DNA of 32,922 nucleotides from Bacteroidales bacterium (GTDB lineage: Bacteria > Bacteroidota > Bacteroidia > Bacteroidales > UBA7960). The position numbers and the translations under genes were made by a program. Below, one piece after another: positions 10,675 through 31,505 of the stretch. Under the pieces are notes generated by a model, which did no database searches, was not told where the DNA came from, and saw only the letters and a list, made by a program, of their open reading frames with translations. The stretch lies in contig PWKN01000124.1 in assembly GCA_003559735.1 (NCBI GenBank), positions 1-32,922 on the forward strand, written 5' to 3'. Every line of letters starts with the position of its first letter. Position 1 is the first letter of the stretch.

Positions 10675-12315
10675 CTAAAGCTCAAGGTGCCGCAACCCTT
10701 GCTTAAACATAACATCCACTGGTATGTCTGCATTGTTGATCCGGTCAATGTCCCTTTGCAGTGTTTCAGGCATGGTGCCGTCTTGCCTGATCAGGTTCTG
10801 TGCGGACTGGTAATCGCCGTCACCCTGTATGGTAATGAGTTTTTCCACTGCCTTCTCCACGGCGTTTCGCATATTGTCGAAATCAACCTTGTAGGTATTG
10901 GTCTCCTCGCAACGGGCAAAGGCCTCTTCACGGGCAAAGAAGTTGAACCTTATCATCCCGGCCGTTCCATGTGCTCCCGCTGTACCAAAACGGCTTGACC
11001 GCATTACACTTGCAAAAGAGGTTACGTAAGCCTGCCTGAGCTCTTCTTCAGTAAGCGCTCCCATTTCATGCAGCTGTGTAATGAGGAAAAGGGCCATCAG
11101 GTCGGAAACAGTGGCATCAATCACTCCGTGGTATTCACGAAGCGCATCGCGAACAGGACCCTGACCGGTAACCGTGTTGGAAATACCCAGTCCGCCAGCA
11201 ATTTCGTGAAAGGCGGTGAGTCGAAAAAATGCATCAAAACCTACATAATCGCGCTGGTCTTCATGGATCTTCATATCACCAATGGGCTTCAGTATTTTAT
11301 CAAACTTTGCTTCCATCACATTGACCAGCTGCATGCTTCGTGTTCCCATCTTACGCTGAACTTCAGGATCATGCGGAAGATGAAGTGCAATGATCTTCGG
11401 TCCTGCATTACAATGACCAGCATAATAGATGGCTTCGTATACACCAATATCGGAATGATCGCCCGGTACTTCCTGTTTATACCTGTCGGGCACAGGCAGC
11501 CTTTCCTGCAGGTCTGGCACCATATCGACATACCGGCGAAGGACTTTACTGCGTTCGTGATCCTTGATTAGAATATAGGCACTGTGGGCTGCCTTATGAC
11601 CGAACTTACGGTCCTCACCGGTATCAAACGGTCTCAGTATCAAATCGATATTGTTGTCACGCATCTGCATCCAGGCCATATCGCTCTCCCTGTAGTCGTC
11701 CGACAAAAAAGCCTCTGCAAGCTCCTCAAGGTAATTGGCAAATGGTTTGTATTCGGACAATAACGTGGCTTTCTGAAGCAATCGCACGATTTCTTCATTC
11801 TGTGCGGCAAACGCATCGGCATAGGGTATCGATACAAGCGAACCATCAGCCGTACGGCGGATCATGGTATACGGACTACGTTTGTCGGGATCATCCCACT
11901 CATTGAACTCATCGCGCTCCATATCGGGCGGGTAAAAATTGGCACCGAGCGGCTTATCATCAAATCCGGCAACAAAAGGTGTATGCCCTTCAAGCCTTCC
12001 CCAGGGACCATAGTTTATTCTGGCATAGTCGCGGGCGTAGGGTTCATCAATGTAATCCATCAGCTGATCGCGCGAGCCGTAGGACTGTATCCAGAAAATG
12101 TCGTCCACAACGTCGGCCGCAGATATCAGCAAAGGGATCATGTCCCGCTCCTGCTCACTCAGTTGCGAAAGATCGGCGGTGAGAACGACTTCCTCATACT
12201 GTGCAATACGCTGACGCAACTGCTCCTGGTACTCGGTGTCTGCCGGCTGGCAGGAATAAAAAAGAAAGGATAGGAAAATAACGGAAATAAAGAAAGCGCT
12301 GAAACGTACCATCAT
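10675..12315 (-). CDS. M49-like (DPP III-type) lipoprotein, zinc site lost
   Basis: The 546-residue precursor has a lipoprotein signal peptide (hydrophobic 5-20, cleavage expected before Cys22 in FYSC). It aligns by motif with the Bacteroidota short form of peptidase family M49 (dipeptidyl-peptidase III-like): NYGPWGRL (about 101-108), LPVPDRYK (273-280), the active-site region from 365, and RFGTAGAHGTAG (442-453). The active-site helix reads HEIAGG (370-375): glycine occupies both places where a second zinc histidine would be in HExxH or HExxxH. The EECRAE-like segment with the third zinc ligand reads DATVSD (400-405). The reading frame is intact, so this looks like a maintained pseudoenzyme, not a decayed gene. 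Probable location is the periplasmic or outer-membrane surface. Confidence 0.8.
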   Translation of the reverse strand: MMVRFSAFFISVIFLSFLFYSCQPADTEYQEQLRQRIAQYEEVVLTADLSQLSEQERDMIPLLISAADVVDDIFWIQSYGSRDQLMDYIDEPYARDYARINYGPWGRLEGHTPFVAGFDDKPLGANFYPPDMERDEFNEWDDPDKRSPYTMIRRTADGSLVSIPYADAFAAQNEEIVRLLQKATLLSEYKPFANYLEELAEAFLSDDYRESDMAWMQMRDNNIDLILRPFDTGEDRKFGHKAAHSAYILIKDHERSKVLRRYVDMVPDLQERLPVPDRYKQEVPGDHSDIGVYEAIYYAGHCNAGPKIIALHLPHDPEVQRKMGTRSMQLVNVMEAKFDKILKPIGDMKIHEDQRDYVGFDAFFRLTAFHEIAGGLGISNTVTGQGPVRDALREYHGVIDATVSDLMALFLITQLHEMGALTEEELRQAYVTSFASVMRSSRFGTAGAHGTAGMIRFNFFAREEAFARCEETNTYKVDFDNMRNAVEKAVEKLITIQGDGDYQSAQNLIRQDGTMPETLQRDIDRINNADIPVDVMFKQGLRHLEL

Positions 12316-12375: not shown

Positions 12376-12406
12376 CAAAATTACAAAAAACCGGCGACCA
12401 GGCAAA
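12376..12406 (-). promoter_or_regulatory. Promoter of the M49-like lipoprotein gene
   Basis: On the minus strand, TTTG (12406 to 12403) and TAATTTTG (12383 to 12376) are 19 nt apart, a full match to the Bacteroidota consensus. The predicted start of transcription is near 12370, about 55 nt before the start codon. The rest of the 303-nt divergent gap (12316-12618), apart from the guaD promoter, shows nothing I can name. Confidence 0.72.
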
Positions 12407-12561: not shown

Positions 12562-12590
12562 TTTGAGAGAAAAAATTTTCCGTACTTTTG
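12562..12590 (+). promoter_or_regulatory. guaD promoter, Bacteroidota type
   Basis: TTTG at 12562-12565 and TACTTTTG at 12583-12590 are 17 nt apart. Transcription would begin near 12597, only about 20 nt before the ATG at 12619. This supports that start over an in-frame upstream ATG at 12538, which would lie ahead of the promoter. Confidence 0.75.
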
Positions 12591-14087: not shown

Positions 14088-14894
14088 CTATTTTGTCTGC
14101 TTCCTGTGAATAATACTGGATACATCTTCCCGCAAGCGATTTACCTGGCGTACAAGCTCCTGCTGTGACGTGTCGCCGTCGGGCATTTCACTGCTGATAT
14201 AATTGACAAACTTCCATACTTCACGCACGTCATTTATATGCACGTCATAAGGCTCATACACCGGGTTCAGCGAATGAAGCCTGAGCGTGCCGTCTTTCCT
14301 TAAACGGTTCTCCACTACCTTGAATACCACCCCGTCGTCAAGGGTGTGGATCACATAAGCGTGCCGGTCACGTATCAGATGCCAGTTCTGCAAAAACTCA
14401 CAAGTAACCCACGAACCATCAGGGATGGGCAACATGCTGTCGCCCGACACCTGGAAGCTGCGGTATTTCTTCTGCCGCGATAAAAACGGCATCTGGAAGA
14501 CCGGCAACACCCTGATAAACTCCGGATCAGCAAAACCGGACCGGTAACCGGCCTTCGCCTTCTCCGAAACCATCTCAATGTTCTCCTCGTTCTCACGATC
14601 AACCGTTGTGGCCAACACCCGCAACTTGCTTCCGGTAAGGAATACATCATACCCCCTTTCAAGCTGCGACAGCTGACTCTCAGCCAAACTTCCCAGGTCT
14701 GTCTTTATCAGGGTATCAACAGACACATTGAAATAACGCGAAAAAGCCACCAGGGTGTCCAACCCGGGCTGAGCCACCCCATTCTCATAACCGCTCAGCG
14801 TGGGGCGCTTCAAACCAAGCGCAACAGCCACATCGTCCTGGGTGCGGCCCCGGCGCTTGCGCAATAACTTGATATTGGATCCAAAATGTCCCAT
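14088..14894 (-). CDS. Cro/CI-type repressor with self-cleaving S24 domain
   Basis: The 268-residue protein has an N-terminal helix-turn-helix (about 6-62, TQDDVAVALGLKRPTLSGYE region) and a C-terminal S24 peptidase domain like LexA and phage CI. The S24 serine is Ser153 in SGDSM and the general-base lysine is probably Lys192 in VFKVVEN. An Ala115-Gly116 bond in KAKAGY is placed as the expected autocleavage site. By analogy with LexA/CI, cleavage after DNA damage would inactivate the repressor. It is transcribed away from the Y-family polymerase / DnaE operon and shares its control region, so it is probably the regulator of that operon. A short, probably coiled C-terminal tail (about 240-265) follows the S24 domain. 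Confidence 0.88.
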   Translation of the reverse strand: MGHFGSNIKLLRKRRGRTQDDVAVALGLKRPTLSGYENGVAQPGLDTLVAFSRYFNVSVDTLIKTDLGSLAESQLSQLERGYDVFLTGSKLRVLATTVDRENEENIEMVSEKAKAGYRSGFADPEFIRVLPVFQMPFLSRQKKYRSFQVSGDSMLPIPDGSWVTCEFLQNWHLIRDRHAYVIHTLDDGVVFKVVENRLRKDGTLRLHSLNPVYEPYDVHINDVREVWKFVNYISSEMPDGDTSQQELVRQVNRLREDVSSIIHRKQTK

Positions 14895-14990
14895 ACAAAC
14901 ACATAGCCTTTAATAAGGTACACGGCAGACAATGAACGAATGACAATCCCATTGCCCTCTTTTTTTGTCCGCCAAACGAACAATTCAATT

Positions 14991-15040
14991 TTTTTGATTA
15001 TATTATAAGCATATTTTTGATCATATTTTAATCAAAAATA
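14991..15040. promoter_or_regulatory. Candidate operator and promoter of the polymerase operon
   Basis: The 14-mer TTTTTGATyATATT occurs at 14991 and 15014, 23 bp apart on the same face of the helix. A third, inverted copy (ATCAAAAATA, 15031-15040) makes a perfect dyad with the second: TATTTTTGAT (15012-15021) and ATCAAAAATA around a 9-nt spacer. The dyad overlaps a Bacteroidota -7 box TATTTTTG (15012-15019); the nearest TTTG (14993-14996) is 15 nt upstream, slightly short. Placement suggests that the divergent Cro/CI-like protein binds here and blocks the promoter. Binding is inferred, and AT-richness makes chance dyads more likely. Confidence 0.5.
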
Positions 15041-15082
15041 CAAAATCTTTTGAACATACAAGCGAAAAATGATGTTTTTTTT

Positions 15083-16288
15083 ATGAAAAACAACAACCGG
15101 CGGCAACAGGGCAACAACGAACCGAGGAGCATCCTCCACCTCGACCAGGATACATTTTTTGTATCGGTAGAACGCCTGCATAACAACCGCTTGAAGGGAA
15201 TGCCGGTTGTGATAGGCGGAATGGGCGACAGGGGTGTTGTGGCAAGCTGCAGCTATGAAGCCCGCCAGTTTGGCATCCATTCGGCCATGCCTATGGGTAT
15301 GGCACGCCAACTGTGTTCCGGTGCCATATACATACGCGGCGACATGGATCTGTACAGCCGTTATTCCGATATGGTGACCAGCATCATTGCCGACAGGGTG
15401 CCGCTGTTTGAAAAGAGCTCCATCGACGAACATTATGTTGACCTGACAGGCATGGACCGTTTTTTCGGCTGCCGGCAATGGGCAAAAGAGCTGCGTCAAA
15501 CCATCATGAAAGAGACGGGACTGCCTGTTTCAATGGGCTTATCACTCAACAAAACCATCGCCAGGATCGCTACGGGAGAGGCCAAACCCAACGGACAACT
15601 GGAGGTGGCGTCCCCGGAGGTGATCCCCTTTCTCGACCCGCTGTCTATACGTAAGATCCCGATGATCGGTCCCAAAACCTATCACAACCTCCGCAATATG
15701 GGCATCGCCACGATCCGCACGCTTCGAAACATTCCGCCGGAAGTCTTTGAAAATATGCTGGGAAAGAACGGACGGGAAATATGGCGGCGCGCCAATGGCA
15801 TCGACAACAGTCCGGTACTGCCGTGGAACAGACACAAAAGCATCAGCACCGAAACAACCTTCAGCAACGACACCATCAACACCACGCACATCAGCAACAC
15901 CTTGCTGCACCTGTGCGAACAGCTTGCCTACAAACTCCGCAACAACCAGCAGCTTACGGGCTGCGTGTCGGTCAAAATACGGTATGCCAACTTCGACACC
16001 CACACCCTTCAGCAAAACATTCCTTATACCTCTTTCGACCATCTGCTGATCCCTGCCTGCCAGGAGCTTTTCAGACGTCTTTATAACCGGCGGATGCGCA
16101 TCCGGCTTGTCGGTGTCAGGTTCAGCCGGCTGGTAAGGGGCGTGCAACAACTAAACATGTTTGAAGACACCACGGAAACAGCAACCCTGTACCAGGCAAT
16201 AGACAAAATGCGCAACAAATATGGTGCCGGCATCCTGGGAAGGGCAGCGGGCAAGAAGCTCATTGAACTGCGAAACAACAATGAATGA
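15083..16288 (+). CDS. dinB: Y-family DNA polymerase, DinB-like (translesion)
   Basis: The 401-residue protein is a Y-family polymerase: catalytic Asp21 in LHLDQD, Asp115-Glu116 in SSIDEHYVDLTG, and Phe26 at the steric-gate position that excludes ribonucleotides. The little-finger region is followed by QLNMF (356-360), a good match to the sliding-clamp pentapeptide QLxLF. All catalytic acids are present, so it should be active, unlike ImuB. A TTG at 15050 would extend the frame by 11 residues, but the ATG at 15083 is preferred. Its stop overlaps a possible ATG of the next gene (ATGA at 16285), so the two polymerases are probably made together. DinB is the closest named relative; paralogues cannot be excluded. 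Confidence 0.9.
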   Translation: MKNNNRRQQGNNEPRSILHLDQDTFFVSVERLHNNRLKGMPVVIGGMGDRGVVASCSYEARQFGIHSAMPMGMARQLCSGAIYIRGDMDLYSRYSDMVTSIIADRVPLFEKSSIDEHYVDLTGMDRFFGCRQWAKELRQTIMKETGLPVSMGLSLNKTIARIATGEAKPNGQLEVASPEVIPFLDPLSIRKIPMIGPKTYHNLRNMGIATIRTLRNIPPEVFENMLGKNGREIWRRANGIDNSPVLPWNRHKSISTETTFSNDTINTTHISNTLLHLCEQLAYKLRNNQQLTGCVSVKIRYANFDTHTLQQNIPYTSFDHLLIPACQELFRRLYNRRMRIRLVGVRFSRLVRGVQQLNMFEDTTETATLYQAIDKMRNKYGAGILGRAAGKKLIELRNNNE

Positions 16289-16338
16289 CATGGTGCCCCG
16301 GCATCCCTGTACGGTCATGGTACATCACAACAGGCAAT

Positions 16339-19300
16339 ATGTACATCAACACACACACTTATTACAGTCTGCGCTACGGCACCCTGTCGCCAAAACAACT
16401 GGTAAGCCTTGCAGTACAAAACGGGACAGACCGGATGGCGCTTACCGACATCAACAACAGTACAGCCATGCCGGAGTTTGTAAGGCTGTGCCGCAAACAT
16501 GGCATCGCCCCGGTGGCAGGAATGGAGTTCCGGCAGGACAACCAACTGTTGTATGTCGTTCTGGCACGCAACGAAGACGGGTTCCAGCACATCAACACCT
16601 TCAGAAGCAGGCACAACATAACGGGGACCCGCCTGCCGCAACGCTTTCCTGTATGTGAACACACCTTTGCCATATACCCTTCCGGAAAAGACAACAAGGT
16701 GGCTGAAGCAATTGCCGGCTCCGGATGGCATCCTAACGAATATGCCGGCATCAGGGCCGGCGACCTCCATCGTCTGTATGCCTCACCCCTGAGGCACCAT
16801 CCCGGCAGACTGGTGGTACTGCACCCGGTCTCTTTCGAAAATACCGCCGGCTATGCACTGCACCTCCACCTGTGCGCAGTCCGGCACAACATACTGCTCA
16901 GCCGGCTAAAGCCACAACACAGCGGAACACCCGGCGATGTGATGCTTCCGGTACAACACCTGAAGCAACAATATGCCGCCTTCCCGCACATCATCAACAA
17001 CACGGAAAAACTCCTGGAAGCGTGCCATATCGACTTTGACTTTGGAGTCCTGAAAAACAAAAAAAGCTTTACCGGACAACCGGCCGATGACAGGACATTG
17101 CTGGAAAAGCTGGCCTTTGAGGGGATGAAGCGCCGCTACGGGAAAAACAACAAAGAGGCCATGCGGCGCATACAAAATGAACTGGCCGTTATCAGCAAGC
17201 TGAACTTCTCTTCTTACTTTCTCATCACATCAGATATTGTCCGCTATTCAATGTCGCGCGGATTCTACCATGTAGGCCGCGGCAGCGGTGCAAACAGCAT
17301 TGTTGCTTACTGCCTGCAGATCACCGACGTAGACCCCATCGCCCTCGACCTGTACTTCGAACGGTTTATCAACCCCAAACGGTCTACCCCGCCCGATTTT
17401 GACATCGACTACTCGTGGCGCGACCGCGACCAGGTGCTGGCATACATCTTTAAGCGATACGGAGATGCACATACCGCCTTGCTGGGAACCATTTCCACCT
17501 TCCATCACCGATCGGCAGTAAGGGAAATGGCCAAAGTATACGGACTCCCAAAAACAGATATCGATGTCCTGGCAGCAAGTGCACACCGAACTGACGAAAA
17601 CCATGAACGAAAGTCCGCCGACCTGCAAGACACAAAAGACGGCCATAAAACAGCCCGTACAGAGACAACAACAGGAAACAAAGAGCGCATCTGTGAAAAG
17701 GTGCTGCACCGGGCCCGGCAACTGGTTGGGTTCCCCAACCTGCGCAGCATCCATGCCGGTGGCGTCCTCATATCTGAAAAGCCGGTATGCCGGTACGCCG
17801 CCCTCGACCTGCCCCCAAAAGGACTGCCTACGGTACAATGGGATATGTACACCGCCGAAGACCTTGGTTTCGAAAAAATTGACATCCTCAGTCAGCGGGG
17901 TATCGGACATATAAACGAGTGCATCCGGATCATAAAGGAAAACCACGGCAGGGATGTTGACATTCACCGGATGGAGCTCATCAGGAAAGACCAGAAGGTA
18001 AAGGCATTGCTGCGCAACGGCAAAACAACCGGCTGCTTCTACGTTGAGAGTCCGGCGATGCGCAGCCTGCTGCAAAAGCTCAGGTGCGATGACTATCCCA
18101 CCCTGGTGGCCGCCAGCTCCATCATCCGGCCCGGTGTGTCGCGCTCAGGAATGATGGATGAATACATTCGCCGGAGCCACCACCCTGAAAAGATACAATA
18201 CCTGCACCCGGTGATGGAAAACCAGCTGAAAGAAACCTATGGGGTAATGGTCTACCAGGAAGACGTGATCAAGGTATGCCACCACTTTGCCGGACTTGGT
18301 CTTGCTGATGCCGATGTACTCAGACGCGCCATGAGCGGAAAATACCGGTCGAAAGAGGAAATGCAGCGGCTGACAAAGCGTTTCTTTGAGGGCTGCCGCA
18401 CAAAAGGCCACCCTGACCATCTGGCCAGGGAAGTGTGGCGGCAGATAGAATCCTTTGCAGGATACTCCTTCTCCAAAGCACACTCTGCCTCTTTCGCGGC
18501 CGAGAGTTTCCAGAGCCTTTACCTGAAAGCCCATTACCCGGTAGAGTTTATGACAGCCGTCATCAATAACTTTGGCGGATTTTACCGGAGCGGGGTCTAC
18601 TTCCATGAAGCGCGCAAAACAGGGGCCCGCATAGAACTACCCTGTGTCAACCGGGGCAGTTATCTGAATACCGTTGAGGGGAACACAATAATCACCGGCT
18701 TCGTGCACATCAGGAACCTTGAACAACAAACCGCACAACAGATTGTATGCGAACGTCAGCAACAGGGACCTTTCCAAAGTCTGGAAGACTTTGTAAGACG
18801 TACGGGCATTGCGGTGGAGCAACTGGTGACCCTCATCCGTACAACCGCCCTGCGGTTTACCGGCATTGCCAAACAACACCTCCTGTGGCAGGCGTACACG
18901 ATGACCGGGAAGGGCAGAAAAAAACAACCCACCCTTTTTGCACTACCGGCAAAAACGTTTCAACTTCCCGAGCCGGAAAGCGATGCGTTGACGGATGCGT
19001 ATGATGAGTTGGAACTGCTGGGCTTCACTCTGTCGATGAGTCCGTTTGAGCTGCTGCAAACCACTTTTCGCGGCGAAGTATGTGCAAAAGGGATGGCTGC
19101 TGCCGAAGGCCACCGGGTACGCATGCTTGGCTGGCTGGTGACCACCAAATACGTCCGTACCATCCGGAACGAAACCATGTATTTTGGATGCTTTCTCGAC
19201 CACCAGGGAGACTTCTTTGACACCGTCCACTTCCCCGAAACCGCCAGGAAATATCCTTTCCGCGGAAGCGGTATCTACCTGATGCAGGGACGAATTACAG

Positions 19301-19410
19301 TGGAATACAACCACCCTTCACTGGTGGTTGAAAAGATGGCACGCCTGCCAGTAAGCCCCGACCCCAGGGAAGATGTCAGGCCTGGGCAGTTGGTCCGCCA
19401 AGATTCATAG
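16339..19410 (+). CDS. DnaE-type DNA polymerase III alpha, error-prone cassette form
   Basis: The 1023-residue C-family polymerase keeps the catalytic aspartates: PDFDID (Asp353, Asp355) and Asp515 in EKIDIL. It also has GRGSGANSIVAY, VMVYQEDVIKV and AGYSFSKAHSASFA. The N-terminal PHP domain begins at once (MYINTHTYYSLRYG) but reads NTH and TDI where metal-binding PHP domains have histidines, so PHP proofreading is unlikely. QPTLF (863-867) resembles a clamp-binding motif, and a C-terminal OB-like region follows. It lacks an exonuclease partner here and is paired with a Y-family polymerase under an S24 repressor, which points to a DnaE2-like mutagenic role rather than replication. An earlier ATG at 16285 overlaps the dinB stop; 16339 fits the family N-terminus better. 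Confidence 0.9.
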   Translation: MYINTHTYYSLRYGTLSPKQLVSLAVQNGTDRMALTDINNSTAMPEFVRLCRKHGIAPVAGMEFRQDNQLLYVVLARNEDGFQHINTFRSRHNITGTRLPQRFPVCEHTFAIYPSGKDNKVAEAIAGSGWHPNEYAGIRAGDLHRLYASPLRHHPGRLVVLHPVSFENTAGYALHLHLCAVRHNILLSRLKPQHSGTPGDVMLPVQHLKQQYAAFPHIINNTEKLLEACHIDFDFGVLKNKKSFTGQPADDRTLLEKLAFEGMKRRYGKNNKEAMRRIQNELAVISKLNFSSYFLITSDIVRYSMSRGFYHVGRGSGANSIVAYCLQITDVDPIALDLYFERFINPKRSTPPDFDIDYSWRDRDQVLAYIFKRYGDAHTALLGTISTFHHRSAVREMAKVYGLPKTDIDVLAASAHRTDENHERKSADLQDTKDGHKTARTETTTGNKERICEKVLHRARQLVGFPNLRSIHAGGVLISEKPVCRYAALDLPPKGLPTVQWDMYTAEDLGFEKIDILSQRGIGHINECIRIIKENHGRDVDIHRMELIRKDQKVKALLRNGKTTGCFYVESPAMRSLLQKLRCDDYPTLVAASSIIRPGVSRSGMMDEYIRRSHHPEKIQYLHPVMENQLKETYGVMVYQEDVIKVCHHFAGLGLADADVLRRAMSGKYRSKEEMQRLTKRFFEGCRTKGHPDHLAREVWRQIESFAGYSFSKAHSASFAAESFQSLYLKAHYPVEFMTAVINNFGGFYRSGVYFHEARKTGARIELPCVNRGSYLNTVEGNTIITGFVHIRNLEQQTAQQIVCERQQQGPFQSLEDFVRRTGIAVEQLVTLIRTTALRFTGIAKQHLLWQAYTMTGKGRKKQPTLFALPAKTFQLPEPESDALTDAYDELELLGFTLSMSPFELLQTTFRGEVCAKGMAAAEGHRVRMLGWLVTTKYVRTIRNETMYFGCFLDHQGDFFDTVHFPETARKYPFRGSGIYLMQGRITVEYNHPSLVVEKMARLPVSPDPREDVRPGQLVRQDS

Positions 19411-19729: not shown

Positions 19730-22700
19730 CTACACCCGCTCTTTCTCTTCTGCCGGTCGTCCCTCAGCCGCCTTCTCCTTGGAGGCCATCAGCAGGTTAT
19801 ATTCCTCCATGGAACCCACGATGATGTTGTCGTATTCGCGCAATCCGGTTCCGGCAGGGATCAGGTGACCAACGATCACATTTTCCTTCAATCCGTTCAG
19901 TCTGTCTGTCTTTGCATTCACCGCTGCATCGGTAAGCACTTTGGTTGTTTCCTGGAATGATGCCGCAGATATGAAACTTTGTGTCTGCAGCGAAGCTTTT
20001 GTGATTCCCTGCAACTGCTGACGCGCAGTAGCCCCGTTGGCGTCGCGGGCAACAACAAGCTTTTTGTCCCTGCGCTTCAGCATGGAGTTCTCATCGCGCA
20101 GCTTGCGCGCAGATACGATCTGACCAGGCTTCAGCAAAGAGTCGCCCGGGTCTTCAACAACCTTACTGCCAAACAGGCTGTCGTTCTCTTCCATAAACTC
20201 CACCTTATTGACCACTTCATTCTCCAGGAACCGGGTATCGCCGGGATCTTCTATGACAACCTTCCGCATCATCTGTCTTACAATGATCTCAAAATGCTTG
20301 TCATTGATCTTCACCCCCTGCATGCGGTACACTTCCTGCACCTCGTTGACGATGTATTCCTGAACCGCGGTTGGCCCTTTAATGGCAAGAATGTCTGCCG
20401 GAGTGATCGGTCCGTCCGACAACGGCGTGCCGGCCTTCACAAAGTCATTTTCCTGTGCGAGGATCTGCTTGGTCAGGGGCACCAGGTACCGCTTTTCATC
20501 ACCCGTTTTCGATGTGATGATCACCTCCCTGTTGCCGCGCTTGATCTTCTTACCAAAAGATACCACCCCGTCAATTTCCGACACCACGGCGGGATCAGAA
20601 GGGTTTCGCGCCTCAAACAACTCTGTGATGCGGGGCAAACCACCGGTAATGTCGCCCGATTTACCCACTGCACGGGGGATCTTCGCAATGATCGTTCCCG
20701 GCTTCACTTCCCTGTCCTCATTGATCACAACATGCGCACCAACAGGCATGTCATATATACGTTCCGTCTTCCCGCCGTTGCTGACAATACTGACAGAAGG
20801 GTTACGGGTTTTGTCCTTGGAGTCAATGATCACCTTTTCATAATAACCGGTCTGCTCATCTGAATCAGTACGGTATGTACTCCCCTCCTTCATGTTGTTG
20901 TATGCCACCTTACCCGGCACATCAGAGATAATAACAGCGTTATAGGGATCCCATTCGCATATCAGGTCTCCGCTCTCAACACGGTCACCGTGTTTGAAGT
21001 AGAGGTTGGCACCATACGGGATGTTCTGACTGGTAAGTATCATCTGGGTATTCTTATCTACAATGCGCATTTCTGCCGACCGCCCGATCACCACATGGTA
21101 TTCCTGCCCTTCGTTTGAAGAGAAGGGCACCGAACGCAGTTCATCGATCTCCAGTACACCGGCATATTTGGCATTGATCTTTGAAGCAGTTGCAATGTTT
21201 GACGCCGTACCACCCACGTGGAAAGTACGCAGTGTCAGCTGTGTTCCGGGTTCCCCGATCGACTGTGCAGCGATCACGCCTACCGCCTCACCCTTCTGTA
21301 CCATACGTCCGGTTGCCAGGTTGCGTCCGTAACATTTGGCACATACGCCTGCCTTCGACTCACACGTAAGCACCGAACGGATCTCTACCGCTTCGACCGG
21401 AGACTCCTCGATGACCTGCGACAGCTCTTCCGTCAGCTCTTCGCCAGCCTTTACGATCAATTCACCCGTGGTGGGATGATAGATGTCATGCAGGGTATTG
21501 CGACCAAGAATACGGTCGTACAAGGCCTCTACGGTCTCCTCATTGTTTTTCAGTGCGGTGGCCGTCAGACCCCTCAGGGTGCCGCAGTCAAACTCATTGA
21601 TAATCACATCCTGGGCCACGTCGACAAGACGTCGTGTAAGGTATCCGGCATCTGCTGTTTTCAGGGCAGTGTCAGCCAGACCCTTCCGGGCACCGTGCGT
21701 CGAGATAAAATACTCAAGTACCGACAACCCCTCCTTAAAGTTCGAAAGGATCGGGTTTTCAATGATCTCTCCCCCTTTGGCACCCGACTTTTGGGGCTTC
21801 GCCATCAAACCACGCATACCCGACAACTGGCGGATCTGCTCTTTCGAGCCACGGGCACCGGAGTCGAGCATCATGTAAACAGGATTGAACCCCTGGTTGT
21901 CGGCCGTGGTCTTGTCGATCAACACCTTTGTAAGACGGGCATTGGTGTGTGTCCAGATGTCAATGATCTGGTTGTATCTTTCATTGTTGGTGATAAAGCC
22001 CATGCTGTAGTTGCCACGAACCTCCTCCACCTGGTCATCGGCCTGGTTGATAAGTATCTGCTTCTCTTCCGGGACAATAATATCGCCCAGGTTAAACGAC
22101 AATCCGCCGCGGAAAGCGAGGTTGAAGCCCAGGTCTTTGATGTCGTCAAGGAATTTTGATGTACGGGATATGCCCGTCTCTTTCATGATCCCACCGATGA
22201 TGTCACGGAGGGCTTTCTTTGTTAGCAGCTGGTTAATGAACCCATACTCTTCAGGGATCACCTGGTTGAAGAGGACCCTTCCGACTGTCGTTTCAATCCG
22301 CTGCATTACCAGCTGGCCTTTCTCTTTTACGGGCACCCTTACGTTGATGATGGCATGCAGGTCGGCAGCACCTTCATTGTGGGCGATGATCACTTCCTCC
22401 GGACCATAGAATGTCAGGCCTTCGCCTTTTACCGGGTGCTCTTTGGTGCTCTTACGTGCCTTTGTCATATAGTACAAACCGAGCACCATATCCTGCGAGG
22501 GCACGGCTATGGGTGCACCGTTGGCTGGATTGAGAATGTTGTGCGATGCCAGCATCAGCAACTGTGCTTCCAGTATGGCAGCATTTCCAAGGGGAAGATG
22601 TACGGCCATCTGGTCGCCGTCGAAGTCGGCATTAAAAGCAGTACACACAAGCGGGTGCAGCTGAATGGCTTTCCCCTCAATGAGTTTAGGCTGAAAAGAC

Positions 22701-24043
22701 TGAATTCCAAGCCGGTGCAGCGTAGGTGCACGGTTTAGCAATACAGGGTGCCCCTTCAGCACATTCTCCAGTATGTCCCATACAACAGGATCTTTCCTGT
22801 CAACGATCTTCTTTGCCGATTTTACAGTCTTTACGATGCCCCTTTCCAGCATTTTCCTTATGATAAAGGGCTTAAACAGCTCTGAAGCCATCTCTTTGGG
22901 AATACCGCATTCGTGAAGGCCCAGCTCGGGACCCACCACAATGACCGAACGTGCGGAATAATCAACACGCTTACCCAGCAAATTCTGACGGAAACGTCCC
23001 TGTTTCCCTTTCAGGCTGTCAGACAGCGACTTCAACGGTCTGTTCGACTCTGTCTTAACGGCATTTGTTTTCCGTGAGTTGTCGAATAATGAATCGACGG
23101 CCTCCTGGAGCATCCGTTTCTCGTTTCGCAGTATTACGTCGGGCGCCTTGATCTCTATCAGCCGCTTAAGCCTGTTGTTCCTGATGATCACCCGCCGGTA
23201 AAGGTCATTCAGGTCGCTGGTGGCAAAACGACCGCCATCCAGGGGGACAAGCGGACGAAGTTCGGGCGGGATCACAGGCACCACATCCACGATCATCCAT
23301 TCAGGCTTGTTCTCCAGACTCTTCTGTGCATCGCGGAAGGCTTCAACAACCTGCAAGCGTTTCAGGGCATCGGCCTTGCGCTGCTGCGAAGTTTCAGTGT
23401 TTGCCTTATGGCGCAGGTCATAGGACAGCTGATCCAGGTCAAGCCTGTTAAGAAGATCCTTCAGTGCATCAGCACCCATGCGGGCAACAAACTTATTGGG
23501 GTCGTCATCCTCGAGCATCTGGTTCTCTATCGGAATAGACTCCAGGGCAGTAAAATATTCCTCCTCGGTGAGGAAATCCATGAAGTTCAGCTCGTCAGAC
23601 TTTACCCCGGGATTGATCACCACATAGCGCTCATAATAAATGATCTGGTCAAGTTTCTTCGAAGGGAGTCCGAGTAAATAGCCAATCTTGTTCGGGAGGG
23701 TACGGAAAAACCAGATATGTGCCACCGGGACAACAAGCTTTATGTGTCCCATCCGCTCACGGCGGACCTTTTTTTCGGTCACTTCCACACCACATCGGTC
23801 ACATACAATGCCCTTGTAACGAATCCGCTTGTATTTGCCACAATGGCATTCCCAATCCTTTACCGGACCAAAAATCCGCTCACAGAACAGTCCGTCCCTT
23901 TCGGGCTTATAGGTGCGGTAATTGATCGTTTCTGGCTTCAATACCTCTCCATGGGAACGTTCCAGCACCGATTCGGGAGAGGCGAGACTGATGGTAATGC
24001 TGGAAAAATTGCTTTTTACGTTTGATTCTTTTCTGAAAGCCAT
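19730..24043 (-). CDS. rpoC: RNA polymerase subunit beta'
   Basis: The 1437-residue protein is the beta' subunit of RNA polymerase. It has the N-terminal zinc ribbon with Cys66, Cys68, Cys81 and Cys84, the catalytic magnesium motif NADFDGDQM, the second zinc-binding cluster ([13 protein letters not shown]) and the bridge-helix/trigger-loop region [16 protein letters not shown]. Length and ending fit Bacteroidota RpoC. It follows rpoB with an 85-nt gap that shows no promoter match, so the two are probably cotranscribed. Confidence 0.98.
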
Positions 24044-24128
24044 ATATATATGTATGTTGTTAAGAACGTTTTCTTTCCGTGTGCGCCAGACCTGCCCGTT
24101 ATATGTTCAGCAAGTTCTGTGCCACCGG

Positions 24129-27100
24129 TTAATCAAAATGTATATTCAGGCCCAGTCCCCTTAACTCATGTACCAATACATTGAACGATTCGGGTACGCC
24201 CGCTATGGGCAGGTTGTCGCCTTTCACGAGTGATTCATAGGTTTTTGCCCTTCCGATCACGTCGTCCGACTTCACTGTGAGTATCTCCTGGAGCACATTG
24301 GCTGCACCAAAGGCTTCCAATGCCCATACCTCCATTTCCCCGAAACGTTGTCCGCCAAACTGTGCTTTACCACCAAGCGGTTGCTGCGTGATGAGCGAAT
24401 AGGGACCGATCGAACGTGCATGCATCTTATCGTCCACCATATGTCCGAGCTTCAGCATATAGATCACACCCACAGTGGCAGGCTGGTCAAACCGTTCACC
24501 GGTACCCCCGTCATAGAGGTATACCTTTCCGTTCTCCGGCAAACCGGCCTTAGCCATGTATTCATTGATCTCATGGACATTGGCGCCGTCAAAAATCGGA
24601 CTGGCATATGTCATGCCCAGCTTCTGTCCTGCCCAGCCAAGCACCGTCTCATAGATCTGTCCGAGGTTCATCCTTGAAGGCACTCCAAGCGGGTTCAGCA
24701 CTATGTCAACAGGGGTACCGTCTTCAAGGAACGGCATGTCTTCCTGGCGGACGATCTTGGCAACAATCCCTTTGTTTCCATGGCGTCCGGCCATCTTATC
24801 CCCCACCTTCAGCTTGCGCTTTTTGGCAAGGTACACTTTTGCCAGCTGAACAATACCCGTTGGCAGCTCATCACCTACAGTTGCAGTGAACTTCATCCGG
24901 TTATAAACGCCGAGGATGTCTTTGTGCTGGATCGAATAGTTGTGCAGGAGTTCCCTGATCAGCTGATTCTTCTTTTTGTCGGTGGTCCAGTTATTTGGAT
25001 TAATGGTTGAATAGTCGATGCCGTTAAGGGTTTTTTGCGTAAACTTTGTGCCCCTTGGCACCACCGATTCTTTCAGGCTGTTGGTAACACCCTGTGAGGT
25101 TTTTCCTGAAACCAGCACGGTGAGCTTGTCGATCAGTTTAGACCTCAGCTCTGCAGCTTTCTCGTTGAACTCCGCATCGAGCTTCTCTATATACGTCTTC
25201 TCCTTATTTTTTGCCTTACGGTCCTTGATGATCCGTGAAAAGAGTTTTTTGTCAACAATTACACCTTTGGTGGCCGGTGGTGCTTTCAGGGAAGCATCCT
25301 TCACGTCCCCGGCCTTGTCCCCGAAAATGGCACGCAGAAGCTTTTCCTCCGGTGTGGGATCGGTTTCCCCTTTCGGTGTGATCTTACCGATCAGGATATC
25401 CCCTTCGTTCACTTCTGCCCCAATACGTATCAGTCCGTACTCATCAAGGTCCTTGATGGCATCGGCACTTACGTTGGGAATGTCACTGGTAAGCTCTTCC
25501 GCTCCTCTTTTGGTGTCGCGCACATCAAGAGAAAATTCTTCAATGTGGATGGAGGTAAAGACATCGTCGCGTACAATTTTCTCAGACACTACGATGGCGT
25601 CCTCAAAATTGTATCCTTTCCACGGCATAAATGCTACCTTCAGGTTTCGGCCAAGGGCAAGCTCACCATTTTTTGTCGCATAACCTTCACACAGCAGCTG
25701 CCCTTTCTTTACACTCTGGCCTTTCTTAACGATGGGTTTGAGACTCAGGCAGGTGTTCTGATTGGTCTTGCTGAACTTGGTCAGCTGGTAAGTTTTTACA
25801 TCATCTTCAAAACTTACCAGTCGCTCCTCCTCGTTCCGGGTATATTTTATGGTGATGGTATCGGCATCTACATATTCGACAATGCCATGCCCCTCGGCAT
25901 GAAGCAGCACCCTTGAATCGTTTGCCACCCTTTTTTCAAGACCCGTACCCACAATGGGAACCTCCGGATTGATCAGCGGAACGGCCTGGCGCATCATATT
26001 GCTGCCCATAAGGGCCCGGTTGGCATCGTCGTGTTCCAGGAAAGGGATCAGTGACGCAGCGATAGAGGCGATCTGGTTCGGACCAACATCCATCAGCTTG
26101 ATCTGATCTGGCTCAACAATGGGATAGTCAGCCTGGTAACGCACTTTTAACCGTTCATCTGCAAACTGACCATCTTTGGTCAGCGGGATGTTTGCCTGAC
26201 TGATGATTTCCGTCTCTTCCTCTTCGGCCGACAGGTAGACGGGGGATTTATCGAAACGCACCTTGCCATTCTCAACCTCAAAATAAGGCGTTTCAATAAA
26301 ACCAAGCTCATTTACCTTGGCATACACACACAAAGAAGAGATCAGTCCGATGTTCGGCCCCTCAGGAGTTTCTATGGTACACAACCGGCCGTAATGCGTA
26401 AAGTGAACGTCCCTGACCTCAAATCCGGCACGTTCACGCGACAGACCGCCGGGACCCAGCGCCGACATCCGGCGTTTATGCGTAATTTCTGCCAGCGGAT
26501 TGGTCTGGTCCATGAACTGCGACAACTGGTTTGTTCCAAAAAAGGAGTTGATCACCGACGACAACGTTTTGGCATTGATCAGGTCGGTAGGTGCAAACAC
26601 TTCGTTGTCGCGCACATTCATCCTTTCACGAATGGTCCTGGCCATACGTGCCAGTCCGACACCAAACTGTGCATAAAGCTGCTCCCCGACAGTCCGCACC
26701 CGGCGGTTGCTCAGGTGGTCAATGTCATCCACATCGGCTTTTGCATTCACCAGCTCAATAAGGTATTTTACAATGCAGATAATATCTTCCCGGGTAAGCA
26801 CCTTCACATCCATCGGTGTGTTGAGGTTCAGTTTCCTGTTGATGCGATACCGTCCGACATCGCCCAGGTCATACCGCTTATCAGAGAAAAACAGCTTATC
26901 GATCATGCTGCGGGCTGTTTCATCATCGGGTGGATCGGCGTTCCTGAGCAAGCGATAGATAAACTCTACGGCTTCTTTTTCCGAGTTGGTGGTGTCTTTT
27001 TGCAGGGTGTTGTAAACCAGCATATAATCGTTCACGTTCACCCCTTCCTTGTGCAATATGATGGTTTTTACACCCGCATCAATGATCAGGTCAATGTGTT

Positions 27101-27941
27101 CATTCTCCAGCACCGTTTCGCGATCAATGATCACTTCGGTACGTTCAATGGATACCACCTCCCCGGTATCTTCATCTACAAAGTCCTCGACCCACGACCG
27201 CAACACCCGTGCCGCCAGTTTTCGTCCGGTATATTTTTTCAGTCCTGTTTTTGTTACCTTCACCTCGTCGGCCAGGTCAAATATTTCCAGGATCTGTTTG
27301 TCTGTCTCAAAGCCTATGGCCCTCAACAATGTTGTTACCGGTAGTTTTTTCTTCCGGTCAATGTATGCATACATCACACTGTTGATATCGGTGGCAAACT
27401 CTATCCACGAACCTTTGAATGGAATGATCCGTGCACTGTAGAGCTGGGTGCCGTTGGCATGTACGCTTGTTCCGAAGAACACGCCGGGCGACCGGTGCAA
27501 CTGTGACACCACCACCCTTTCGGCCCCATTAATAAGGAATGTACCCCTGGGGGTCATGTAGGGGATGGTTCCAAGGTAAACATCCTGTATGATGGTTTCA
27601 AAGTCCTCGTGCTCCGGATCCGTACAATACAGTTTTAATTTCGCCTTCAGCGGGACACTGTAGGTCAGTCCCCTGTCGATGCATTCACGGATGGAATACT
27701 TTGGGGGATCAATAAAATAATCCAGAAACTCAAGTACAAAGTTGTTTCTGGCATCTGATATGGGGAAATTCTCACTGAACACTTTGAAAAGTCCCTCATT
27801 CTTCCTGTTTTCAGGTGTTGTCTCCAACTGGAAAAAGTCCTGAAAGGACTTTATCTGGATTTCAAGAAAATCGGGGTAATCAAAGTGCGTGCTTACCGTT
27901 CCGAAATTTACCCTTTCTGCGTTTTTTTGTTGTGCTGCCAA
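24129..27941 (-). CDS. rpoB: RNA polymerase subunit beta
   Basis: The 1270-residue beta subunit shows the rifampicin-pocket region with [24 protein letters not shown] (about 510-535, read in parts), then [29 protein letters not shown]-like [12 protein letters not shown], and the C-terminal [14 protein letters not shown] and [18 protein letters not shown]. The rifampicin-pocket residues look wild type (Asp in FMDQ, His in ITHKRR, Ser in GPGGLSRE). The start [14 protein letters not shown] is the normal family N-terminus. A 269-nt gap with a hairpin separates it from rplL. Confidence 0.98.
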
Positions 27942-28003
27942 GGTATGTAGGTTTGAAGTTACTAAAAGCTAAAAGATAAAACAGGATAACCGAAATAACG
28001 ATC

Positions 28004-28036
28004 AGACTTCTCAGCGAAACAGCTCCGGAGAAGTCT
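28004..28036 (-). promoter_or_regulatory. Hairpin in the rplL-rpoB intergenic RNA
   Basis: A perfect 9-bp stem AGACTTCTC (28004-28012) / GAGAAGTCT (28028-28036) encloses a 15-nt loop, about 60 nt upstream of rpoB in the 269-nt gap. It has no U-tract, so it is not an ordinary terminator. In Escherichia coli the same gap holds an attenuator and an RNase III site that lower rpoB relative to rplL; a similar role is inferred here. No TAnnTTTG promoter box is found on the minus strand of this gap. Confidence 0.55.
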
Positions 28037-28210
28037 TCATGGTGTTGTTATGTGGCTTTGACTGGTTTGGTTGCGTGCCTGCAGAAAAACACATTCGTCA
28101 TAACAAATGATCCCTCCCTGTATGAACGGTGGTGCTTCCGTGTTGTTGCTGAAGCCGGCATTTCCCTTGCAAGCACGCCAGCAAACCAATAGTGTCATCG
28201 TTACATAACA

Positions 28211-28591
28211 CTACTTTATCTCAACTTCTGCTCCCGCTTCGTCGAGTTGTTTTTTCAGCGACTCGGCTTCGTCTTTTGTAACTCCTTCTTTGATGGCTTT
28301 TGGTGCACCATCAACCAGTTCTTTTGATTCCTTAAGGCCAAGGCTGGTGAGTTCTTTAACGAGTTTCACAACAGCAAGCTTGGAAGGCCCTGAGGCTTTC
28401 AGGATAACATCAAACTGGGTTTTTTCTTCCGCAGCCTCGCCGCCTGCTTCACCTCCGGCAGCTGCAACAGCTACCGGTGCTGCTGCTGCCGGTTCAATAC
28501 CATATTCGTCTTTTAAAATTGTTGCCAACTCATTTACCTCTTTCACTGTCAGGTTAACCAGTTGTTCTGCAAAAGCTTTCAAATCTGCCAT
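28211..28591 (-). CDS. rplL: 50S ribosomal protein L7/L12
   Basis: The 126-residue stalk protein has the N-terminal dimerisation part (1-35), an Ala/Gly-rich hinge (about 37-52) and the C-terminal domain that recruits translation factors ([19 protein letters not shown] and [11 protein letters not shown]). It is highly acidic, as expected. The gene follows rplJ with a 60-nt gap. Confidence 0.98.
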
Positions 28592-28651
28592 TTTTTATCG
28601 TTTTTTATTGGGTTTTACGAATGAAAATTTGTTTAATTCAATGAAATAATC

Positions 28652-29182
28652 TTAACTCTCTTTTTCAGAAAGCGTTTTAACAAGGCCGGCAATTGTATTT
28701 CCTCCCGACTGAAGGGAAGAGATGACATTTTTCGCAGGCGATTGTAATAATCCGATAAGGTCTCCGATCAATTCTTCCCTTGATTTGATGTTCGCCAATG
28801 TCTCGAGCTGTTCTTCGCCAACAAAGATTGCTTCTTCGATGTATGCCCCTTTAAACAAGGGTTTCTCGCTTTTCTTTGATTTGCGGAATTCTTTGATCAG
28901 CTTTGCGGGGACATTTCCGGTATCAGAGATCATCACTGAGGTGGCACCGACCATTACCCCGTAAAGCGGGGAAAGGTCTTTTTCGCTTTTCTCAATTGCT
29001 TTTTTCAGCAGGGTGTTTTTTACTACCTCCAGGGATACATTTCTCCGGAAACACAACCTCCTGAGATCATTGATGGTCTCTACGTTCAAATCAGAAGTAT
29101 CGGCCAGATAAATGATATCGCTGTTTTTCAGTTTTTCTGTCAGCGATTCAATGATCTGATATTTTTCTTCTCTGGTTTTCAT
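28652..29182 (-). CDS. rplJ: 50S ribosomal protein L10
   Basis: The 176-residue protein forms the base of the ribosomal stalk and binds L7/L12 dimers through its C-terminal helix. It matches L10 at VSLEVVKNTLLKKAIE (about 49-64) and SREELIGDLIGLLQSPAKN (about 133-151). It lies 39 nt after rplA. That gap looks too short for a large L10-binding leader, so any autoregulation would need an element reaching into rplA. Confidence 0.97.
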   Translation of the reverse strand: MKTREEKYQIIESLTEKLKNSDIIYLADTSDLNVETINDLRRLCFRRNVSLEVVKNTLLKKAIEKSEKDLSPLYGVMVGATSVMISDTGNVPAKLIKEFRKSKKSEKPLFKGAYIEEAIFVGEEQLETLANIKSREELIGDLIGLLQSPAKNVISSLQSGGNTIAGLVKTLSEKES

Positions 29183-29221
29183 AAAGTGTAAACATCTTTA
29201 AAGGCTCACCACCTTTTTCGT

Positions 29222-29917
29222 TTATAATGAAACTGATTTTGTTTCCACCTGGATGCCCGGACTCATGGTGCTCGACAAATATATGCTGCGCACATAGGTC
29301 CCTTTAGCAGCGGCAGGCTTCAACCGTAAAATTGTCTGAATGAGTTCTTTGGCATTATCCACGATCTTTTCTTTCCCAAACGACACTTTCCCGATCCCTG
29401 CATGCACAATACCAAACTTATCCACTTTAAAGTCGATCTTACCGGCTTTCACTTCAGACACCGCTTTACCGACATCCATTGTTACGGTGCCGGCCTTGGG
29501 ATTGGGCATCAGTCCGCGCGGACCGAGAATTCGTCCCAACGCACCAACTTTGGGCATCACATTGGGTGTGGTGATGATCACATCCACATCTGTCCAGCCG
29601 CCTTTGATCTTCTCAACGTATTCATCCAGGCCAACGTAATCAGCTCCGGCTTCTTTTGCTTCATCTTCCTTATCAGGACCACAAAGTACGAGTACACGAA
29701 CGGTCTTTCCTGTTCCGTGCGGCAGGGTAACCACCCCCCTGACCATCTGATTGGCCTTCCGGGGATCTACGCCAAGACGGATATCCAGGTCAACGGATGC
29801 ATCAAAATTTGCATAATTGACCTTTTTAACCATATCTGCCGCTTCGGATAAGGTGTACACCGCATTCTTATCGAACTTTGCTAAAGCTTCCTTTTGTTTT
29901 TTCGTTAATTTCGCCAT
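29222..29917 (-). CDS. rplA: 50S ribosomal protein L1
   Basis: The 231-residue L1 protein of the ribosomal exit-side stalk shows the family signature [28 protein letters not shown] (read in two parts, residues about 113-141) and the paired domain ends [17 protein letters not shown] and [16 protein letters not shown]1 also represses translation of the rplK-rplA unit in other bacteria. It follows rplK with 58 nt between. Confidence 0.98.
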
Positions 29918-29975
29918 TGTATAAGATTGCGTTAAGCTTTAATAATTCATGCCTGTGCCTGGCATTCTGCCGGCA

Positions 29976-30413
29976 CTAAGCAGGGCGTTCCCCTTTGATA
30001 CGAATACCCATACTGCGTGCAGTACCCGCTACCATGTTCATGGCAGAGTCTACCGTAAAGCAGTTAAGGTCAGGCATCTTTTCTTCAGCGATCACCCGTA
30101 CCTTATCCCAGGTAATTGTTGCTACTTTGGCTCTGTTGGGTTCTGCCGAACCTGATTTGATCTTGGCTGCTTCACGCAGTTGCACGGCAACGGGCGGGGT
30201 TTTGATGATAAAGTTAAAGGACTTGTCCTTAAACACCGTAATGATCACCGGTATCACCTTCCCTGCCTTGTCTTGTGTACGGGCGTTGAACTGCTTGCAA
30301 AACTCCATGATGTTCACACCTTTGGCACCCAATGCAGGTCCCACCGGCGGAGAAGGGTTTGCAGCACCCCCTTTGATCTGCAGCTTTATGATTCCACTAA
30401 CTTCTTTTGCCAT
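29976..30413 (-). CDS. rplK: 50S ribosomal protein L11
   Basis: The 145-residue L11 binds 23S rRNA at the GTPase-associated centre. Visible family parts are [19 protein letters not shown] (about 10-28), [15 protein letters not shown] and the C-terminal [12 protein letters not shown]. The N-terminal domain is proline-rich as usual. It follows nusG after 106 nt; this leader might contain an L1 binding site, but I cannot identify one with confidence. Confidence 0.98.
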
Positions 30414-30519
30414 TTTTTTTAATTGTTTTTCACATTAGGGGACTGATTTTTTATACAGGGGCAGCATCAATGACCGGGAACCGACAACTCCTTGATCTGC
30501 AACACACCCCGGCGAATGA

Positions 30520-31062
30520 TCACTCTTTCTCCACCTGCATAAAACTCAATTCCAAAGGTGTTTTCCGTCCGAAGATCTTCACCATTACCTTCAGCTTTTT
30601 CTTCTCTTCATTGATCTCTTCAATAACACCTGAGAAACTGTTAAACGGACCGTCTGTAACTTTCACTGTTTCTCCCACTATGTATGGGACATTCAATTCT
30701 TCCCCTTTTCCTGACAGCTCGTCAACTTTTCCTAAAATGCGGTTGACTTCCGCTGGCCGGAGGGGTACCGGGTCACCACCAGAGCCCAAAAAACCCAGTA
30801 CACCAGGAATGTTTCGAATAATATGCGGGATCTCCCCTACCAGGGCGGCCTCAATGAGCACATATCCGGGGAAATAGTTGCGCTCAGCGCTGATCTTTTT
30901 CCCCTTGCGCACCTGATAGACCTTCTCTGTCGGAATGAGTACCTGCGACACGTAATCCCCGAGCCCCTGGTTGGCGATCTCATTATCAAGGTATTGTTTT
31001 ACCTTTTTTTCGCCACCGCTGACAGCCCGGACAACATACCATTTTTTTACTTGTTCGCTCAT
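30520..31062 (-). CDS. nusG: Transcription termination/antitermination factor NusG
   Basis: The 180-residue protein has the NGN domain (about 5-115: KKWYVVRAVSGGEKKVKQYL, NYFPGYVLIEA, IPGVLGFLG) and a C-terminal KOW domain (about 125-178: VKVTDGPFNSFSGVIEEI). NusG binds RNA polymerase and links transcription to translation or Rho. It sits between secE and rplK in the conserved order. Confidence 0.97.
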   Translation of the reverse strand: MSEQVKKWYVVRAVSGGEKKVKQYLDNEIANQGLGDYVSQVLIPTEKVYQVRKGKKISAERNYFPGYVLIEAALVGEIPHIIRNIPGVLGFLGSGGDPVPLRPAEVNRILGKVDELSGKGEELNVPYIVGETVKVTDGPFNSFSGVIEEINEEKKKLKVMVKIFGRKTPLELSFMQVEKE

Positions 31063-31155
31063 ACTGACACTAAGAGATCTTTGTTCCGCTATTTGTTTTT
31101 GTCCGGCAATGAAAATCAGATATAACTATTTTGTGCCGAAGCAAAAACGGGATCA

Positions 31156-31350
31156 TTACAAAAAGAGACGGTAAAATTGCTCTAAAACGGAGCTAAAGGA
31201 AATATCCATCAGATAAACGACCAGTGCGATTATCAGGGAAGCAATGGATACCACCACTGCGCTGCTCTGCAGTTCACTCCAGGAAGGCCAGGAAACCTTA
31301 TTGATCAGCTCATCATAGGATTCCTGGATATAGGCTCTGATTTTCTTCAT
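31156..31350 (-). CDS. secE: Preprotein translocase subunit SecE
   Basis: The 64-residue protein is a minimal SecE: an amphipathic N-terminal helix with ESYDELINKVSWPSWSEL (about 10-27) and one membrane segment (about 30-52). It clamps SecY in the inner-membrane translocon. It lies 20 nt after tRNA-Trp and 93 nt before nusG, as is typical. Confidence 0.96.
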   Translation of the reverse strand: MKKIRAYIQESYDELINKVSWPSWSELQSSAVVVSIASLIIALVVYLMDISFSSVLEQFYRLFL

Positions 31351-31370
31351 TTTTCAATCAATTTTTTTTG

Positions 31371-31443: not shown

Positions 31444-31452
31444 TCACGTAAT

Positions 31453-31486: not shown

Positions 31487-31505
31487 TTCACTATGAAAAA
31501 TATGA

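Follow-up and report, generated by a model that had tools for sequence, protein, structure and literature searches.

The locus considered here raises the question of whether a dipeptidyl peptidase III (DPP III) homologue with an altered zinc site is a dying gene or a protein kept for a task other than peptide cleavage. It lies in a window of 32,922 nucleotides, the whole stretch of Bacteroidales DNA that was analysed. A first-pass annotation had read the gene as an intact 546-residue lipoprotein of the M49 type with its own promoter, and the frame, the leader and the promoter were borne out. One open frame of 546 codons runs uninterrupted on the minus strand from 12315 to 10675, and the hydrophobic leader of its product ends at Cys22 (FYSC, followed by Q), which was invariant in 20 of 20 aligned orthologues. 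The Bacteroidota promoter consensus is captured by the pattern TTTG-N17-21-TAnnTTTG. This pattern matched four times in the window, where 0.47 matches were expected, and four or more matches occurred in none of 100 shuffles; one match precedes the gene (Table 1). A second match, at 12562-12590 on the plus strand, is divergent from the zinc-less gene and lies upstream of a phosphorylase gene at 12839.

Table 1. Features of the DPP III-like gene and its product, in window coordinates.
Feature	Position	Strand	Basis
Zinc-less DPP III-like (M49-fold) lipoprotein, 546 aa	10675..12315	-	frame, PDB homology, predicted fold
Lipoprotein signal peptide, residues 1-22, lipobox Cys22	12250..12315	-	sequence; Cys22 invariance
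Bacteroidota-type promoter, TTTG-N19-TAATTTTG	12376..12406	-	pattern match
H370-E371-I-A-G374-G375, once the zinc helix; Gly instead of the second zinc His, with the first His and the catalytic Glu retained	11191..11208	-	sequence, alignment, counts
Counterpart of the second zinc motif EEAKAD, reading D400-A401-T-V-S-D405; Ala instead of the zinc Glu	11101..11118	-	sequence, alignment, counts
Former peptide-amine anchor E-x-Y, now D231-T-G233	11617..11625	-	residue counts; anchor role from docking (PMC9820243)
Residues 301-315: H301, H312, H315 where active relatives have D301, N312, N315	11371..11415	-	alignment, counts
K337 = C. abyssi Lys346 (bonds dipeptide, S1'-S2') = Corallococcus Lys351 (hinge)	11305..11307	-	kept 120/120
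R439 (= C. abyssi Arg450, primed-side dipeptide), R442, H449 (= Corallococcus His465)	10969..11001	-	each 25/25
D534 = Corallococcus Asp547, hinge-lysine partner in closed form	10714..10716	-	24/25, 1 gap

Elsewhere in the window, an HTH/S24 regulator beside a Y-family polymerase and a DNA polymerase III alpha gene (14091-19407) resembles an inducible mutagenesis cassette, and positions 19733-32693 hold an ordinary cluster with EF-Tu, NusG, the ribosomal proteins L11, L1, L10 and L12 and the RNA polymerase subunits beta and beta'. Across 28 loci, neighbouring gene families recurred in at most 10, many of the contigs being short. The recurring neighbours were a PF05430 methyltransferase (10 loci), a queA-methyltransferase and an AMP-binding ligase (9 each) and UbiA, NUDIX and SulP (7 each). 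They look metabolic or housekeeping, and no dedicated operon partner stood out in the 28 loci.

The relationship to M49 was examined by a phmmer search against the PDB, which retrieved the DPP III of Caldithrix abyssi (6eom, E 8.7e-94) and of Corallococcus (5zum, E 3.3e-75), both over nearly the full length. Both enzymes are members of the short, HExxH-bearing branch of M49 (PMC5805324, PMC9820243). The Pfam M49 model PF03571 gave 17.9 bits and stayed below its gathering cut-off of 21; no NCBIfam model reached its cut-off for the window protein, and no family fitted four of its relatives either. An AlphaFold model made from a 52-row alignment (pLDDT 93.7, pTM 0.90) superposed on 6eom with Z 46.2 and TM 0.86-0.89, and on 5zum, from Corallococcus sp. 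EGB, with Z 47.0 over 517 aligned residues. The overlay on human DPP III that had been proposed as a check was also obtained, with Z 26.2 for the form with bound tynorphin, and Z was 31.6 for the closed DPP III of B. thetaiotaomicron. Full-length homology and the two-domain DPP III fold, the latter in a predicted model, place the protein in the HExxH subfamily. The likeness to M49 noted at first is real, but the nearest enzymes are those of the short subfamily and the general family model stays below its threshold.

The zinc ligands of C. abyssi DPP III, which binds zinc and cleaves, are H379 and H383 of the HEISH motif and E412 of EECKAD (PMC5805324). In the phmmer alignment these positions fall on H370, G374 and A401 of the window protein, so that one of the three ligands is kept and two are lost. 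The subfamily site HExxH ... EExKAD reads HEIAG ... DATVSD. Residues 370-375 (HEIAGG, with codons 374-375 at 11196-11191) contain neither HEXXH nor HEXXGH, and the Glu of EEX(K/R)A(D/E) is missing from residues 400-405, position 401 being Ala or Val in all 25 orthologues. A scan of the whole protein found no HExxH, HExxxH or HxxEH, which rules out a shifted alignment concealing another motif; in the same scan, 2 of 20 orthologues had such a match elsewhere (L012 at 252, L016 at 139). The first-pass annotation had thus read both motifs and the missing second histidine correctly. Its statement that all usual zinc ligands are replaced has to be revised, since H370 is kept together with the general base E371, and its comparison with HEXXGH and EECRAE gives way to HExxH and EE(C/A)KAD.

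Residues were counted in 120 proteins, namely 25 non-redundant, full-length members of the zinc-less clade, 17 members of a second zinc-less group and 78 active relatives. The named loci and the G genomes overlap (L076, for example, is the contig of L002), and duplicates were taken out before counting. None of the 25 orthologues has His374 or Glu401, which answers the proposed check for a shared change, and position 374 varies freely among G, A, I, E and M. His370 is present in 23 of them and lost in two. The catalytic Glu and the essential His, corresponding to Glu451 and His568 of the rat enzyme, are kept as E371 and H449 in every orthologue. Rat DPP III with either single mutation, H455Y or E508A, had neither zinc nor activity (PMC3268031). 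Because both equivalent positions are changed in the window protein, it would in all likelihood bind no zinc and have no peptidase activity.

The changes extend beyond the zinc site. In docking of the Corallococcus enzyme the peptide amine is anchored by Glu245, Tyr247 and Asn326 (231, 233 and 312 in the window protein), and His465 (449) contacts a peptide carbonyl (PMC9820243). The Glu-x-Tyr and the Asn of this anchor are missing from the window protein, which has D231, G233 and H312. Residue 233 is Gly in 25 of 25 orthologues and Tyr in none, as against Tyr in 78 of 78 active relatives, and Glu231 is found in 2/25 against 78/78. Position 312 is His in 16, Asn in 6 and Tyr in 3 of the orthologues (Asn in 77/78 active relatives), Asn315 is kept in 2/25 (78/78), and position 301 is His in 24, Gln in one and Asp in none (Asp in 75/78). 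That 233 and 401 have been lost together fits the bond in human DPP III between Tyr318 and the zinc ligand Glu508 (PMC9967118). Among 81 positions invariant in 34 active relatives, at least 8 of 16 sampled zinc-less members differed at 17, comprising 5 of the 8 functional positions and 12 of the remaining 73 (Fisher p 0.009). The active set had been defined by the three ligand positions; with these removed, 3 of 5 functional positions were changed (p 0.046).

Another part of the cleft has been retained. Lys337, Arg439, Arg442 and His449 are present in 25 of 25 orthologues each and Asp534 in 24, with one gap; among the active relatives Lys337, Arg439 and His449 occur in 78/78 each and Asp534 in 77/78, again with one gap. 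All 120 proteins have Lys at 337 and Arg at both 439 and 442, with or without a zinc site. The crystal of the C. abyssi enzyme has an Ala-Lys dipeptide in S1'-S2' with bonds to Arg450 and Lys346, the bonded group being unnamed (PMC5805324), and in Corallococcus Lys351 bonds Asp547 in the closed hinge, with Arg455 (R439) near the hinge (PMC9820243). The name 'carboxylate clamp' was considered for K337 and R439 and rejected, the papers giving primed-side dipeptide and hinge contacts instead. Judged from these residues, the zinc-less clade has lost the zinc site and the amine anchor and has kept the primed side and the hinge. Since the zinc and the amine grip are gone while fold, hinge and primed side are kept, binding a ligand and closing on it would be the simplest job to survive. 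On balance, we think that the protein is a retained, neofunctionalised pseudopeptidase whose clam shell closes on a ligand, probably a peptide.

The cleft could also be irrelevant, with the protein serving as a structural or adhesive lipoprotein of the cell surface. The invariant lipobox cysteine and the lack of a dedicated genomic partner agree with such a role, and folding or the hinge, not ligand binding, may be the reason why K337, R439 and D534 persist, the Corallococcus equivalents being hinge residues, which counts against the ligand reading. However, former active-site residues, ligand-facing in the parent enzyme, have stayed or become newly fixed, with H449, Gly233 and E371 at 25/25 each, and we regard a purely structural role as unlikely. 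A metal site rebuilt from H370 and other histidines (H301, H312 and H449), for peptidase or other chemistry, could in principle exist and would likewise count against ligand binding. H301 is new and nearly fixed, H449 and E371 are invariant, H370 is kept in most orthologues, and the M49 fold serves Fe/pterin chemistry in PolE. New metal chemistry is made less likely by the free variation at 374 and by His312, which is not fixed, and H370 itself is lost in two orthologues. PolE, moreover, keeps the motif HE/DxxHx(21-23)E (PMC12614342), whereas the window protein has no HExxH; a rebuilt site is therefore rather improbable.

The distribution of the two forms was followed in the family of the window genome, which comprises 47 genomes, 21 in the same genus and 26 outside it. 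Within the genus the zinc-less copy occurs in 16 of 21 genomes, in 14 of them with the motif read and in two, G016 and G020, as a partial sequence assigned by identity; G007 has decayed pieces and four have none, among them G015, which is 96% complete. An active paralogue was seen in only one of the 16 carriers, G002. Outside the genus, the active copy is present in 23 of 26 genomes (motif read in 22; G330 partial, by identity) and the zinc-less copy in 12, all of which also carry an active copy, with both motifs read. G021, G026 and G336 gave no match at E 1e-20, G026 having a short piece only. In the window's own genome, which is 95.95% complete, a profile search at E 10 matched only the window copy. 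Many of the assemblies are incomplete, but chance is unlikely to explain why 15 of 16 carriers show no active copy, so that most of the genus appears to have dropped the active gene and retained the zinc-less one.

These counts bear on the idea that the protein regulates an active DPP III paralogue or assembles with it, in the manner of the alpha subunit of mitochondrial processing peptidase, which is inactive. Another metallopeptidase family offers a precedent for such a pair (PMC11266112), and pairing would suit the 12 carriers outside the genus. In the genus it is disfavoured, because the active copy is mostly missing there, even allowing for incomplete assemblies, and the profile search showed no second copy in the window's own genome; we consider it quite improbable. 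The lipoprotein may have an unrelated partner other than the active paralogue. Of the two functions guessed in the first-pass annotation, ligand binding agrees with the retained primed-side and hinge residues, but the regulatory role is at odds with the genus, where 15 of 16 carriers show no active copy.

Among 34 loci from named genomes, 29 are zinc-less (27 with the motif read; L107 and L108 partial, by identity) and 5 are active. Three of the 29 come from the bins GEM2 and DLM2, which we take to be Canadian soda-lake mats. The labels GEM2 and DLM2 were not found in the accessible text of PMC6748926. The other 26 are in bins named CSSed, T3Sed, T1Sed or B1Sed, the dataset names of Siberian soda-lake sediments (PMC6146748, PMC6704655). 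A habitat effect is not claimed: the named carriers come from soda-lake bins, but the family has been sampled largely there. A zinc-less copy (L106 / L168) stands at the end of a 13509-base contig binned as Lentimicrobiaceae, by bin contamination or gene transfer, and an active copy in a bin labelled Pirellulales (L109) groups with Bacteroidota copies, by mis-binning or transfer.

In a maximum-likelihood tree of 70 proteins, the 20 zinc-less members formed one clade (100/100) nested within the active HExxH family and sister to the active copies L032/L033 (97/88). Among the intact-site proteins examined, none was more than 54% identical to the window protein, so these relatives are paralogues and not close orthologues, and no close orthologue with an intact HExxH was found. 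A sequencing error or recent decay is ruled out, as the change is common to 25 non-redundant orthologues. Selection was estimated from dN/dS, the values being rough as dS exceeded 1 in most pairs. By NG86, 7 of 10 zinc-less pairs gave 0.027-0.083, in agreement with purifying selection, for which a test had been proposed, and the other three, all involving the window gene, were saturated in dS and gave no estimate; 7 of 8 active pairs gave 0.035-0.123. YN00 gave 0.047-0.128 for 5 of the 10 zinc-less pairs, with 0.128 for one pair, and 0.064-0.113 for 3 of the 8 active pairs. In the genome pair G023/G029, where both copies could be compared, the value was 0.049 for the zinc-less and 0.045 for the active copy.

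In 14 of 15 genome pairs divergence was greater for the zinc-less copy than for its active paralogue, the two being equal in the remaining pair, and the gene in G007 (L049, G007:C23) is broken into four matched pieces, as might be expected of a functionless gene released from selection. Such decay is nevertheless very improbable, since dN/dS lies near 0.05 as in the active copies, no internal stop occurs among the listed zinc-less matches of the family except that of G007, and 44 of the 81 active-invariant positions are unaltered in all 16 sampled members. Taken together, the shared loss in 25 of 25 orthologues, the single clade of 20, the low dN/dS (with the window gene's own pairs saturated in dS) and the overlay of the model agree with the maintained pseudopeptidase proposed at first: essential residues are lost from an intact gene under selection, and the protein is a DPP III homologue maintained without its zinc site and very probably a pseudopeptidase, its inactivity being read from sequence.

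Zinc-less copies were also found in other families of Bacteroidales. Searches with two odd members, each against 198 genomes, gave matches of which a selection was examined, and these added 17 zinc-less full-length proteins, 16 of them with a lipobox match. They are diverse DPP III-like lipoproteins (L043, L046, L132-L135, L138, L141, L143, L151-L158). Lys337 and Arg439 are kept in 17/17 and Glu371 in 16/17, His449 is present in only 1/17 and Glu401 in 4/17. In G200 and G096 the gene of this group stands in tandem with an active copy. The predicted model of L132 (pLDDT 89.6) superposed on 6eom with Z 49.6. In a quick tree of 73 proteins two changes were needed for the zinc-less state, and a single origin of all zinc-less copies was disfavoured (AU p 0.0127, in a quick tree with long branches). 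The zinc-less forms of DPP III thus probably have two or more origins.

For the ligand-binding pseudopeptidase we propose the following course. A gene for an active HExxH-type DPP III of Bacteroidales would have been duplicated, giving a lipoprotein of the cell envelope. Loss of the zinc ligands at 374 and 401 and of most of the amine pocket (E231, Y233, N312, N315) should have left it unable to act as a DPP III. Selection would have kept the clam-shell fold and the primed-side and hinge residues K337, R439 and D534, with R442, H449 and E371, and new residues have been fixed, namely H301, H111 and, at the former amine anchor, G233. The lobes of DPP III close on a ligand (PMC9820243), and here the two lobes would still close, on a molecule bound at the primed side that is most likely a peptide or some other carrier of a carboxylate. 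The bound state itself would be the output, as capture for uptake, as presentation to a partner or as a signal. The ligand class, peptide or carboxylate-bearing, and the output are a tentative part of the proposal. That a carboxylate is the group held on the primed side is our inference; the C. abyssi paper, in its accessible text, names no group. Counted against the proposal are the saturated dS of the window gene, the greater divergence in 14 of 15 pairs, the decay in G007, the four genomes of the genus with no copy, and position 312, which is still Asn in 6 of 25.

Still more tentatively, it may hold for the secreted DPP III lipoproteins of Bacteroidales in general that zinc-free forms arose at least twice, dropping the zinc and the amine anchor and keeping the primed grip and hinge, and that in one soda-lake genus the zinc-free form outlived its active parent in most genomes. 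If this is true, the zinc-free forms would make up a novel class of ligand-capture protein in the envelope, derived from a peptidase, in which clam-shell closure and not catalysis is the working step. The interest of zinc-less DPP III lies in its likely repeated origin and in its persistence where the active parent is gone. A natural experiment is provided by genomes that carry both an active and a zinc-less sister, by what are probably at least two origins and by a genus with mostly the zinc-less copy. The set allows the catalysis-linked parts of the cleft, zinc and amine anchor, to be told apart from the primed side and the hinge, which persist without catalysis, and with these copies a binding-only role of the M49 fold becomes directly testable.

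Pseudopeptidases that have kept the fold and a maintained gene while losing metal ligands are known from M12, M13, M14, M16, M24 and M41 (PMC11266112). In the accessible text of this 2024 review of metallopeptidase pseudoenzymes the words 'M49' and 'dipeptidyl' are absent, and we found no report of an M49 pseudopeptidase or zinc-less DPP III in the open-licence PMC literature as far as its text was available. PolE/DUF6421, an Fe-pterin oxidase, shares an M49-like fold with altered chemistry (Z 17.5-18.9; PMC12614342); its metal motif is absent from the window protein (HEIAG, Ala401), which rules out an Fe/pterin enzyme of that kind. The active HExxH paralogues of the same family (e.g. L032, L031 and L034) are the nearest branches of the tree and mostly have a lipoprotein leader, but they keep every checked catalytic, zinc and amine-anchor residue. 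The Corallococcus enzyme, close in fold, is active with HELMH/EEAKAD and Glu245-Tyr247-Asn326, where the window protein has D-T-G and a His (PMC9820243). C. abyssi DPP III resembles the window protein in full-length homology, length, signal peptide, two-domain fold and the equivalents of E371, H449, K337 and R439, and differs from it in having HEISH and EECKAD (PMC5805324); in the window protein the second His and the Glu of these motifs are missing, and so is the greater part of the amine anchor.
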